64,000 nt of DNA from Patiria pectinifera (lineage: Eukaryota; Echinodermata; Asteroidea; Valvatida; Asterinidae): assembly GCA_029964075.1 (NCBI GenBank), contig CM057149.1:30394197-30458196 (forward strand), in the 5' to 3' direction. The notes under the pieces are model-generated. The model was given only the letters and a program-made list of their open reading frames with translations, searched no databases and was not told the origin of the DNA. Below are positions 1-52,900 of this stretch, in pieces (position 1 is the first letter of the stretch; the number at the start of each line of letters is the position of its first letter). The translations under genes were made by a program, and so were the position numbers.

Positions 1-1866
1 ACATGCTACTGGTTCTTAAACAGGGTTTCTTTGCATAGGACGTTCTTCTCAGACTCAACATTGCAATTAAAGAGCCCATGTACATGTAATGTAATTTTTG
101 ATGCAATCCTTAAAAATCGCACCTTCGCGTCCCATTTAACCCTATTTGCAATTTTCAAGAGTAATTTGGTGCCCTTTTTGTTTTTATGCTAAAGCCAATT
201 TCTATACATTCGTGAGAAAAAGTGTGATGTCATTTCGGGCAGAAACCTCAATGTTACAGTTATTTCAACACCAAAAGTTGCCAGAATTGTGGATTTTTGC
301 TGTCGTAAATATTCTTTTCTGAGGTGATTTGTTGTGTCAATGCATAACAGTAAGCCACTGAGCAAACTTTTCTCACAGATGTTTTCACTTTCAATGAGCA
401 AATGTTTGGGTTCGCAATTTGAACAGGAACTCCTAAACTGGATAATGTCTTCCTACTCTTACTGAAATGACACCACAGCAACAGCGCCCTCAGTTGTCCA
501 AAACAGCATAGAATTTTTTTTCATGTTTAAAGAGGTGAACTTTTCAATAAAATAGACTAAAAAGGGATGTCAAATATTTAGTAGAAAGTTGCACAAATAT
601 TGTTCCGAAGAACACTTTGTTTCTTGTTCCCTTTAAGGACAAGCATGACATAATTATGAGCCAGTTGGAAGTTAACAAAAAAACAAGTTCGATCGGATCT
701 CCGAAGCTGCGAGCCACCAAATGCGTGTTCACCTTATTTTGACCTTTGACCCTATAGCTGAAGGTCAGATGAAGAGGTCACCATGGACATTTTTAAATGT
801 TTCACCAAGGCCAACATGTTAACAGTGCTACTGTTGTCATTTGAGCTTGTTCTGAAATTTGACCTATTTTGACCTTTGACTCTTTGTATCACATAGCTTA
901 ATAACTTGTAAATTACATATTGAATCACAGACGTTGAACACTGCCATATTACAATTGAATTCAAACATTATTCTGGGATACCCACCCCAGATCACCCCAC
1001 CAAAAAAAAATATATCACACAGCTTTGATAAATGATATATTGAATTGCAGACATTGAACATTACGGTATTCAAGCCGAATGCATTGTGAAACTCCATTGA
1101 AATGGCCAAATTATTTTCATTAATTAACGTTGGATGAGAGACCTCCAAAGTTTGAAAGGAGAACCGGAATGGGCAAATTCAATGCAAAGCTTAAAGGGAA
1201 AATACAACATTTGCAAACATCAAAAAATAAAACTACCAAATCATTTTGAAATACCTTGCTGGACTGTTGGTGAATGACAGTGTAAAGCATCCTGTAAAAT
1301 CATGGCACCTGGTATAGGCCCTACTGTCATTTTCAAGAAAAGTGGTATTTTTGTATCAATTTCCAACGCTGGTCGGCCGACCAGCGTTGGAAAAAACTGG
1401 CTTTTTTTTCAAATACTGGCCCCAATTGACCATCGCACTTGTTTGCAATCGATTACAAACCTATGAACGGGTACGAGCCAGCTAGACTGGTTCCCTGACC
1501 TTACAATTCCCCAATGTATGTAAACTGCTCTGTTTCTTCTTATATGTTTCTTCTTATATGGAGTCAGGGAACCAGACTACAGGAAAACGATTATTTTTCT
1601 TGGTTTTTATAGCATCTTCGAACCCAAAACCTCAAAAAAGTCAGTGTAACTATATTTGCTATACATTTCCAACCCCCCAATTCCATCCATTTCTGAAAAT
1701 TACAGCAAAAGCAAATGATGTATATTCCCTTTAATGGCAGAGAAATTAAGTACATAATAAACGGTGAATAATTACAATACCCTTGGGAAGAATCATGTTC
1801 AATTAATGGGATTGAAAAGTTTCGTTCCCTTTTTTTTTATTCAACCTATTTTTGTTATTTCCTTAC
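1..1866. other. MAGI intron downstream of exon 3
   Basis: No coding exon is recognised. The stretch contains palindromic element copy 1 (1191-1734) and two TGACCTTTGACC-type nuclear-receptor half-site pairs near 739-752 and 870-888. The short frames here have no recognisable protein similarity. Confidence 0.6.
1191..1734 (+). mobile_element. TTAA-flanked palindromic MITE, copy 1
   Basis: The element is bounded by TTAA at 1191-1194 and 1731-1734. Imperfect terminal inverted repeats of about 23 bp (TTAAAGGGAAAATACAACAT against TTAAAGGGAATATACATCAT) continue into ATTTGC. The centre at 1361-1392 is a perfect 32-bp palindrome whose left arm is TTCCAACGCTGGTCGG. A second hairpin uses GGTTCCCTGAC near 1489 and GTCAGGGAACC near 1563. 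The element has no coding capacity. TTAA ends fit a piggyBac-like non-autonomous element, but no transposase is present to confirm this. Confidence 0.8.
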
Positions 1867-1986
1867 CATCAAACACGCCGCTTTCGAGAAGATGCCCGCT
1901 CTTCTCTAGCGCCATAAACTCATCCACCGACAGGAATTTATAGTCCACCCCGTCGATTTCGCCTTCGCGGGGAGCTCTTGTGGTAC
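1867..1986 (-). CDS. MAGI: MAGI coding exon 3: guanylate-kinase-like domain
   Basis: This 120-nt exon has acceptor ttcag/gt and donor g/GTAAGG. It reads [20 protein letters not shown] and then [21 protein letters not shown]. The segment corresponds to the GMP-binding lid region of guanylate kinases (TTRxPRxGExxGxDYxFxS), which is kept in MAGI proteins. The exon ends in phase 1, and no further exon is visible between it and position 1. Confidence 0.92.
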
Positions 1987-49870: not shown

Positions 49871-49996
49871 TTACTTCATGCGCTTGCGCTTTACAGGGCT
49901 GCTCCCCAAGGAGCTGCCGGTTGGGGAGATGGGCCTAGCTCCCTTCAGATGCTCTGTGTGATAGTTGTCCATGTATGGCTTGACCACTTTCCACAC
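49871..49996 (-). CDS. HAL: HAL last exon with stop codon
   Basis: The acceptor gttgcag/gt is followed by [41 protein letters not shown] and a TAA at 49873-49871. The first half aligns with the vertebrate C-terminus (VWEVAAPYIEKYRMEHIPESRPLSPT). The end differs and finishes with a basic cluster. No clear AATAAA signal was picked out downstream on this strand. Confidence 0.94.
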   Translation of the reverse strand: MWKVVKPYMDNYHTEHLKGARPISPTGSSLGSSPVKRKRMK

Positions 49997-52900
49997 CTGC
50001 AACATGAAATTCCGACAAAAGCAGAGAATGTAGAGAATGCGTCATTCATTGCCTTTATTCTGACTGCATGTGCGGCATGTGTAGCAGTTTAAGATTAACA
50101 CAATTCTCTTCTCTATTAGCTTACTAGTGTACAAATAATGACTGTTTGTGAGTGGAATGGTAAGAATAATTTCATGAGGTGACAGACGGAATGTTCCATT
50201 CCACAAGGCGAAGCCGAGTGGAATGGAACATTGCGTCTTTTATGGCAAATTATTCTTTCCATTGCATGAGTGTAAACATTCATGATTTGTTTTACAAATG
50301 TGTACTGCTCTTTGTAATAAGAGCAGTAAATAATTCTTTTGGGCAAATGGAACATTACCTTCTCTTCTTGTAGTAGCTTAGTAGCTGCCTCAATGTCGGG
50401 GGCCATGTAGCGATCCTTATCCCACGGTCTGTGCATTAAATGGTGAAAAACGAAAACCATAATATTTTTAAACTGAAACTGATATGGCCTACATGCCTCA
50501 TGCATAAGTACGCCCATATTTGTTGTGCACACAATTTTTTCTATGCAGTCTGCGTCAATGAATGACCAACTTATTGCCTGCATGCAAAATGTCCTGCCAT
50601 AGCTCATGTGAGTGGGCCAACCAAAGATTGAATGCTTAATTTGACATAAAGTATCACCGTTTCCTATGTAAAAGTATGTCACTCACGAGCCAATATGTGG
50701 CCCATCAGACCGGCGTTTATCTCCGGTTTCAGTAGCATTGAAACGACTGAGAATATTTCTATTCCCCCTGGATGGGATGCCAGTCCATCGCAGGTTACTC
50801 CCCAGCTAATGCCGGCACCCATTTATACTCCTGGGTAGAGAGAGGCAAAGGAGGTGAAGTGGCTTGCCCAAGGACACAACTTAATGCCCAGCAGCTGGAT
50901 TCGAACCCCTGACCCCCTGATCATGAGTCACAAACCCTAACCGCTAGGCCACACTCCCCAGCTAATGCCGGCACCCATTTATACTCCTGGGTGGAGAGAG
51001 GCAAGTGGGGGTGAAGTGGCTTGCCCAAGGACACAACATAATGTCCAGCAGCTGGATTCGAACCCCTGACCCCCTGATCATGAGTCACAAACCCTAACCA
51101 CTAGGCCGCACTCCCCCTATGTAAAAGACTGCACAAATATTGGGACTACAAAATGAGAAATGAAAGACTCACGCCACAACTGAGCGGACAAGTTTGTAGA
51201 CTTCCTCCAGTGGAGCCGTAGTCTTCAGCGGACGAAGAAACTCGATGCCTTGGCACGCTGCCAACAACTCAATGGCCAGTACTGAATAAAGAAGGAATGG
51301 TTAAGGGGAATGTACATCATTGGCTTTTGCTGTAATTTACAGAAATGAACTATTTAAGGGGTAAGTATAATATATCAAATATTGTTACACTGACAAGTTT
51401 GAAGTTTTGTGTTCGAAAATGCTGGAAAAACCAGGAAAAACAAAAATGTTCAAGTAGTCTGGTTCCCTGACTCCACTTAAGATAAAATGCATCAATTTAT
51501 AGATGCCGGAAAATTGTAAGGTAAGAAAAGCAATCTAGCTGGTCTGCACCCGTTCATGAACATGGAACCAATAGCAAACAAAATTTGGACTGAAAAAAGG
51601 GTAAACTTGGAGCAGTAGTTGAAAAATAGTTAGGTTTTTCCAACGGTGGTCGGCCGACCACCGTTGGAAATTTATACAAAATACCACTTTTCTTGGAAAT
51701 GACTTCACACCAGGTGCCATAATTTTACAGGATGCTTCAGACTTTCATTTACCAACATCCTAGTAAGCTATTTCGTAAAAATTTGGTAGTTTTGTTTTCC
51801 CAATGTTTGCAAATGTTGTATATTCCCTTTAAATAAAGTTGAAATATTTATATTGGGTTGCTGTTTGATAATTAAAAACCAACTCTCTTTCTAAAAGTAA
51901 CAAAAAAATTATGTGGGATATATGTGATGCAATCAAGCTAAATGAGTCGTTTGTCTGGAATTTTCATTGGAAGATACAGGCCAAAATAGGGCCACTTCAT
52001 CACATCACTTTATCACATCTCTTGGTGTTCCAACTTCCATAATTTTTGAACTAAAGATGGTATGATCATGTGGTTTCACAGCAGTAATGCTGAGATGGTG
52101 CTCTTTTCAAATCTGTAATAAAAAAAATTTCGACCAGGGTCGACAAACGACTCATGTAGCTTGATCGCATCACATATGTTGGAAAATCTTCAAGTCTTAA
52201 ATTAGTCTTAGCATGACACTAGACAGAAGTGTTTTGATGTTAAGAGAAAAGTAAAAAAAAAAAACCATCCACCTTGCTCGACATGCTCCACCACGGTCAG
52301 ACATTTTCTGGCTGAGAATCCTCCCATGCTGACGTGATCCTCTTGGTTGGCGCTCGTGGGCAGCGAGTCCACGGACGCCGGGTGAGTCAGCACCTTGTTC
52401 TCAGAAACTACACAGAAAATGGAAAATAGGAATTTGAAAATATTTCAGTTTTTTTTTAATATGTTAACACCAGAAGACATGTGAACACAATCTGGTAATG
52501 CATATAGGGGCTGGTGGCGGGTTAAATCGTCAAGCTTTTCCTGAGTCTCCGGTGGTGGACGTGTATACACGTCAGTGGTTCCCATTGGTTTTGTACACAT
52601 CGTGTTTTGAACTTGAACTTGGCCGCTGTACTGTTGTTGCAGGGCCTCAGAGTGTTGCAAAATAGTTACAGTGGAAAGTATCCTACAAATATTGTACAAC
52701 TGACTCTCAAGAGTCAGTATTTGTGGTGTTTGACTTCATTTTAAAATTTGGTCGACACATCTTGGTTTTTTTTTTAAAGTGTGGGGTTTTTTTGGCCAAA
52801 AATAATCCTGGCGTGGTTAGGGGTTAACATTTGGTTTGCCTTTTACTGACATAATTTCAAAGCACTGTATATTCAGTGCTGCTAGAGAGATTGTGTTTAA

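Follow-up and report, generated by a model that had tools for sequence, protein, structure and literature searches.

Whether a perfect palindrome that recurs in diverged copies of a transposable element reflects selection on pairing, or has another origin, is the question raised by a 64 kb stretch of the Patiria pectinifera genome (GCA_029964075.1, CM057149.1, positions 30,394,197 to 30,458,196), hereafter the window, which is part of contig 21 of the assembly that we searched (613.5 Mb in 1,020 contigs). The window contains three TTAA-flanked copies, of 509-544 bp each, of a miniature inverted-repeat transposable element (MITE): copy 1 at 1191..1734 (forward strand, W subfamily, 94.3% to the W consensus), copy 2 at 19615..20123 (forward strand, C subfamily, 90.5% to the C consensus) and copy 3 at 51301..51832 (reverse strand, G subfamily, 94.4% to the G consensus), with copies 1 and 3 assigned also from the tree described below. 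Each copy carries a perfect palindrome, of 34 bp (1360..1393), 30 bp (19767..19796) and 34 bp (51637..51670), respectively, in which pair 7 (left-arm base, right-arm base) is C.G in copies 1 and 2, and G.C in copy 3. The three copies, their perfect palindromes and the arm variants had been correctly described in an earlier sequence-only reading, which took the perfect pairing amid decay and the matched change as signs of selection on a hairpin or cruciform, or of arm-to-arm gene conversion. Our analysis leads us to favour, with a probability of roughly 45%, a palindrome that acts in cis as a two-fold symmetric duplex site of the MITE and is maintained in the lines giving new copies; constraint on it as a site is probable, although the case is not a firm one.

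Variation of the palindrome among subfamilies

The C, G and W consensuses were compared over 509 common columns. Within the palindrome 2 of 28 columns are variable, a value as low as that of the terminal columns (5/75), whereas 122 of the 406 other columns (30%) vary (Fisher test of palindrome versus other columns, p=0.008). This is suggestive, though not firm, evidence that the palindrome is conserved between subfamilies, and what has been retained appears to be the sequence itself, not pairing alone.

One pair only, pair 7, differs among the three consensuses, and its states are matched in all of them, as well as in copies with a third matched state, A.T, found at L014:1-420 and L015:2390-2900 (L numbers denote fetched loci). 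These two copies share 83% identity, each differs from all three consensuses by ~20%, and in the copy at L015:2390-2900 pair 13 has also undergone a matched change. A W-type copy, L042:2120-2643, combines a matched A.T at pair 10 with an unpaired change at pair 13. If the second arm were free to vary at 30%, it would match about once in 10, and two matched shifts would occur by chance in ~1% of cases, an estimate that is suggestive and was made after the fact. The matched C.G versus G.C change separates subfamilies: the subfamily with the G.C variant is 22.7% diverged, and the consensuses differ at 98 of 521 sites. What had been interpreted as covariation in the third copy is thus a difference between separate subfamilies.

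A tree built without the palindrome recovers the G family as one clade (100/100), within which two mismatched forms of pair 7 group separately, one clade comprising 21 G.G copies (100/97) and the other five C.C copies (80/84). Neither of these clades includes the G.C copies, and single G.G copies, L018 and L027, lie near the base. The 82 extracted rows had been reduced to 74, by removal of those with the palindrome lost or out of register, and then to 50 by omission of 12 diverged rows (among which were the C-type L077, with G/G, and two G.C copies, L100 and L114) and 12 surplus rows of the C-type outgroup. Eighteen of the 21 G.G copies were chosen for an otherwise exact palindrome, while L103, L109 and L113 come from a sample collected blind to the palindrome (see below). 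No two of the 18 G.G and five C.C copies share flanks, and the remaining three G.G copies also have distinct flanks.

Abundance and independence of the copies

Genome-wide, 9,599 places lie within three mismatches of CCAACGSTGGTCGGCCGACCASCGTTGG, and the same search of the genome with this sequence read backwards gave zero places. The exact palindrome is found at 1,235 places in the C.G form and at 817 in the G.C form (together 2,052 of the 9,599), and with a C/C or G/G mismatch at pair 7 at 188+171=359 places; these genome-wide counts include copies multiplied within a chromosomal block on C1. A search with left-arm A or T at pair 7, and any base opposite, gave 110+110 matches, and among the matches listed (100 rows, corresponding to 86 places) 13 are perfect with A.T, one is A/A-T/T and 72 are unpaired. 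The palindrome belongs to the element in all 45 loci fetched through it (L001-L045), where it lies within the element alignment, the shortest alignment having 83 bases (L016).

On C1, 18 complete copies between 0.26 and 2.7 Mb have common flanks, and go back to a single insertion that was multiplied together with a chromosomal block. In a second set within the block the copy is interrupted after about position 257 and resumes ~1.35 kb further on (L001, L007). Since two insertions were multiplied with the block, its copies were not counted as independent. A young subfamily with a majority unpaired change, suggested by the first C1 sample selected by terminal inverted repeat (TIR), was rejected, as the 18 copies share flanks and were collapsed to one row. 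Comparison of the flanks of the other complete copies gave two links, one resulting from neighbouring element copies and the other a 74% match; the flanks of L077-L096 are all different, as are those on the right side in 18 of the loci L097-L116.

The C1 region at 0.26-2.7 Mb (L001-L003, L005-L008, L010, L012, L013 and 17 of L046-L069) is itself a dispersed amplified block with two element copies, 5.5-7.1 kb apart and present in both orientations, one of them split by a further insertion of ~1.35 kb. To judge from matches with an offset of 31 bases, a tandem repeat may lie close by.

Pairing and decay within subfamilies

Two samples were collected without reference to the palindrome. The C-type sample, collected by the left end, has 26 rows (L055, L069-L071, L074, L075, L077-L096), drawn from 50 TIR-selected loci (L046-L075, L077-L096) after block copies had been collapsed or omitted and L049, L072 and L073, with no paired end in range, had been dropped. 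The G-type copies came from a search by the right end, of which the first 21 rows were taken without omission (L018, L097-L116). The palindrome is perfect in 6/26 C-type and 7/21 G-type copies, that is, in 13 of 47; of the three dropped loci one is mismatched, one is without the palindrome and one is perfect, and their inclusion would give 7/29 for the C type. The three perfect copies of the window are therefore untypical of a family in which 34 of 47 blind copies are imperfect, and the claim of perfect pairing amid decay does not extend to it.

For counts per pair, copies that have lost the palindrome were omitted, which left 42 (23 C-type and 19 G-type), and 41 gap-free copies entered the shuffle test. 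There are 34 single unpaired changes in the C-type and 21 in the G-type copies, 55 altogether, versus one paired double per set (pair 12 of L096 and pair 6 of L111), each a CpG transition in both arms; unpaired doubles likewise number one in each set, two in total. The gap-free copies have 574 cells, 520 of them paired, compared with a shuffle mean of 517.7 (sd 2.2), and 406 of 2,000 shuffles reach a value as high. An excess of co-occurring substitutions in the two arms, for which the sequence-only reading had proposed a test, is thus not observed over the shuffles, and compensatory changes of the kind expected at an RNA hairpin locus (microRNA or small interfering RNA) do not exceed the shuffles among these 41 copies. 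Neither compensation nor conversion is apparent within subfamilies. The pair that has changed most often is pair 7, in 11 of the 42 copies (8 if the three members of the G.G clade are set aside) and never in matched form; pairs 5 and 13 with 9 changes each and pair 12 with 8, all CpG, come next, while the next non-CpG pair has 4.

To follow decay after insertion, private changes at non-CpG sites were counted in copies less than 12% diverged, with local misalignment masked. In the pooled sets such changes number 12/659 in the stem versus 398/13,696 outside (p=0.12), and in the C set 10/349 in the palindrome versus 212/7,091 outside (p=1.0). Inserted copies decay without measurable maintenance of pairing. 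Decay of the palindrome at the rate of the rest of the element, which had been named as an outcome that would speak against covariation, is seen in the C set, and the pooled data show no significant difference; in the G set the rate is lower, as discussed in the next section.

A proposed symmetric duplex site and the alternatives

The findings can be accommodated if the palindrome acts in cis within the element and is retained in the source lines of new copies. It would then be a symmetric site in duplex DNA, with CCAACGnTGGTCGG in each half, bound during propagation by a dimeric protein, possibly the transposase of the element or a host factor; that a dimer reads the palindrome, and which protein this may be, is our inference. 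Once inserted, a copy would decay, and its pairing would not be measurably maintained. The step from C.G to G.C would distinguish subfamilies at the pair under least constraint, and would have passed through mismatched forms, which were themselves amplified. A dimer would read both halves alike, and a variant that is tolerated could therefore come to occupy both. We prefer a duplex site to a hairpin because the sequence is constrained in founder lines, mismatch is tolerated, and inserted copies show no compensation.

Several observations weigh against such a site. The W consensus was built from five copies, two of which came from palindrome searches (L015, L029), and with the C and G consensuses alone, both of them blind, 2/28 palindrome columns are variable versus 92/418 others (p=0.09); we therefore place less weight on the duplex site, and on the internal recognition site considered below, and more on an absence of function, than the three consensuses would allow. 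Other internal blocks are equally conserved, one of them ~45-55 bp to the left of the palindrome: this left internal block, at positions 83-110 of the element (AATGACAGTCTAAAGCATCCTGTAAAAT in C), shows the same degree of conservation among subfamilies as do the palindrome and the ends. The element has a single palindrome, which lies ~155-165 bp from its left end, and our analysis linked neither a protein nor an autonomous partner to it. Mismatched subfamilies have amplified, so exact symmetry is not essential; since mismatched states founded many separate insertions, pairing is not needed for amplification. Finally, in the filtered G set private changes are rarer in the palindrome (2/310 versus 186/6,605 outside, p=0.018), and the same is seen in the unfiltered count of private non-CpG changes (10/780 versus 589/15,600, p=8e-5), which retains strongly diverged copies and leaves misaligned parts unmasked. 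These lower numbers point either to protection after insertion or to constraint along the source lines; some protection of the sequence in inserted G copies is possible, and constraint in the source line before insertion would give the same picture.

The palindrome may also have no function, and be an ancestral feature that the subfamilies inherited, with its low divergence and matched states due to chance in a small sample. We regard this as unlikely, but as a serious alternative, as the three-consensus p value comes from one post hoc test and rises to 0.09 with the two blind consensuses, the private changes of the C set look neutral, and mismatched forms amplify. It accounts less well for a palindrome that varies as little as the terminal repeats when the rest of the element varies at 30%, for the presence of C.G, G.C and A.T as matched states of pair 7, and for the fewer private changes in the G set.

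Selection on a hairpin or cruciform, as originally proposed, would mean that source elements need to fold a strand, either as an RNA hairpin or as an extruded cruciform, and that pairing itself is selected. As single-stranded DNA the 34-mers of the window fold with -17.3 (C.G) and -17.0 kcal/mol (G.C), with z about -7, and for the G.G form the value is -15.0 kcal/mol, so that a mild mismatch is compatible with a hairpin; the matched states of pair 7 in the consensuses and in the A.T copies are also those that it predicts. However, selection on pairing alone should free more than one pair in consensuses that vary at 30% elsewhere, and both the G.G and the C.C forms amplified, which makes this explanation improbable. 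Of the original proposal, constraint of the palindrome in the founder lines (with the p values given above) finds some support, as does the existence of a third matched state; unbroken pairing in inserted copies and arm-to-arm conversion are not supported.

It is doubtful whether one can go as far as to suppose that the mobilising machinery has in the palindrome a second recognition site, inside the element, to which a dimeric transposase or a partner must bind. The half-site variants C, G and A at position 7 would then record successive shifts in the specificity of that protein, and the mismatched G.G and C.C subfamilies would be natural heterotypic sites. Arm-to-arm gene conversion or template switching, by which one arm is copied onto the other and the palindrome stays perfect, would fit the perfect copies at 1,235 and 817 places, but is very improbable given the 55 unpaired singles versus two paired doubles, for which decay of CpG in the two arms accounts, the pairing no higher than in shuffles, and the mismatch that the G.G clade kept through 21 sampled insertions (18 of them selected for the mismatch).

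The palindrome is thus real, in a MITE family that is abundant but in other respects ordinary, and is a candidate for an internal recognition site. More generally, a perfect palindrome with matched changes in natural copies need not mean a maintained hairpin, as subfamily structure and a symmetric site suffice. If the transposase reads the site, the family would record an internal recognition site shifting through mismatched intermediates; otherwise, this is an ordinary MITE family.

Family assignment and related elements

The three copies belong to one abundant non-autonomous DNA transposon family, which, judged by its ends (AGGGAA) and target (TTAA) only, is probably a Kolobok/T2-like MITE. 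TTAA is present at both ends in 62 of the 82 extracted rows, some of the others being cut by the fetched stretch, and the bases outside differ between copies. All three consensuses have AGGGA at the left and TCCCT at the right end, which fits the 5'-RR / YY-3' ends and terminal AGGRR, and the Kolobok superfamily and T2-MITEs are defined by TTAA and AGGRR (PMC6004289, PMC9587614). Considered apart from the ends of the element, a KolX-type domain (P2RX7_C) is found at 15 places in the genome, and piggyBac transposase domain matches at 110. The T2-MITE of Xenopus likewise has TTAA and terminal AGGRR (here AGGGA at either end), and is non-autonomous, abundant and divided into several subfamilies (PMC6004289); the likeness is one of ends and description, and the string 'palindrom' is absent from the main text of that paper.

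A piggyBac superfamily MITE was considered as well: the TTAA target fits, but the ends begin with AGGG, not with the CC[C/T]T of piggyBac (PMC2872659). The piggyBac and piggyBat transposases, which share the TTAA target, bind palindromes through two C-terminal domains of the dimer (PMC11707139), and dimer-read palindromes would explain matched changes in half-sites, although the palindromic sites described there are shorter and nearer the tips than the palindrome of our element. Coral CMITEs also have TTAA, and families of these MITEs have in common a well-conserved internal region, but they are ~100 bp long, have piggyBac-like ends, and 'palindrom' is absent from the main text of the report (PMC2872659).

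For KolobokP the authors consider a possible homing site within a long repeat (PMC9587614). It is a Kolobok, and the direct element copies a few kb apart on C1 recall its layout; in contrast, the consensus of our element has a length of 520-532, versus about 450 or 660, and the C1 pairs are two separate insertions. Long direct repeats of the KolobokP type, where two of them enclose an internal region, which the C1 copies 5.5-7.1 kb apart had suggested, were rejected because the wider flanks are not common: in three of four C1 pairs compared, the element and ~200 bases upstream are shared (80-82%), but not the wider flanks, and in the fourth only parts of the element are shared. One C1 copy is split by an insertion. 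Among the papers listed by the literature searches none concerned this element, and those listed by one of them contain only TTAAAGGGAA.

Other features of the copies and the window

The three palindromes of the element are the longest loop-free perfect palindromes of the window, followed by two of 24 bp, and BLAST with the three subfamily consensuses (E 0.01) detected no fourth copy in the window. The palindrome had been described as central, but lies off centre: its 28 bp core begins at position 154 of 522 in the C consensus and 165 of 532 in the G consensus. In copy 1 the left terminal repeat, including TTAA, lies at 1191..1214 (forward strand, with AGGGAA after TTAA) and the right one, also including TTAA, at 1711..1734 (reverse strand).

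A second, distant inverted repeat has 17 bp arms, 43-63 bp apart, which in copy 1 lie at 1483..1499 and 1563..1579. It has 16/17 matched pairs in copy 1, 13/17 in copy 2 and 11/17 in copy 3, in line with the earlier description of a second hairpin decayed in two copies. Used as an inner comparison, its right arm is identical in the C, G and W consensuses, and it is the left arm that drifts, changing without compensation. Elsewhere in the window, at 53357-53876, there is a long inverted repeat with 224-base arms, 88% complementary, and a 72-base spacer, which is perhaps another foldback element.

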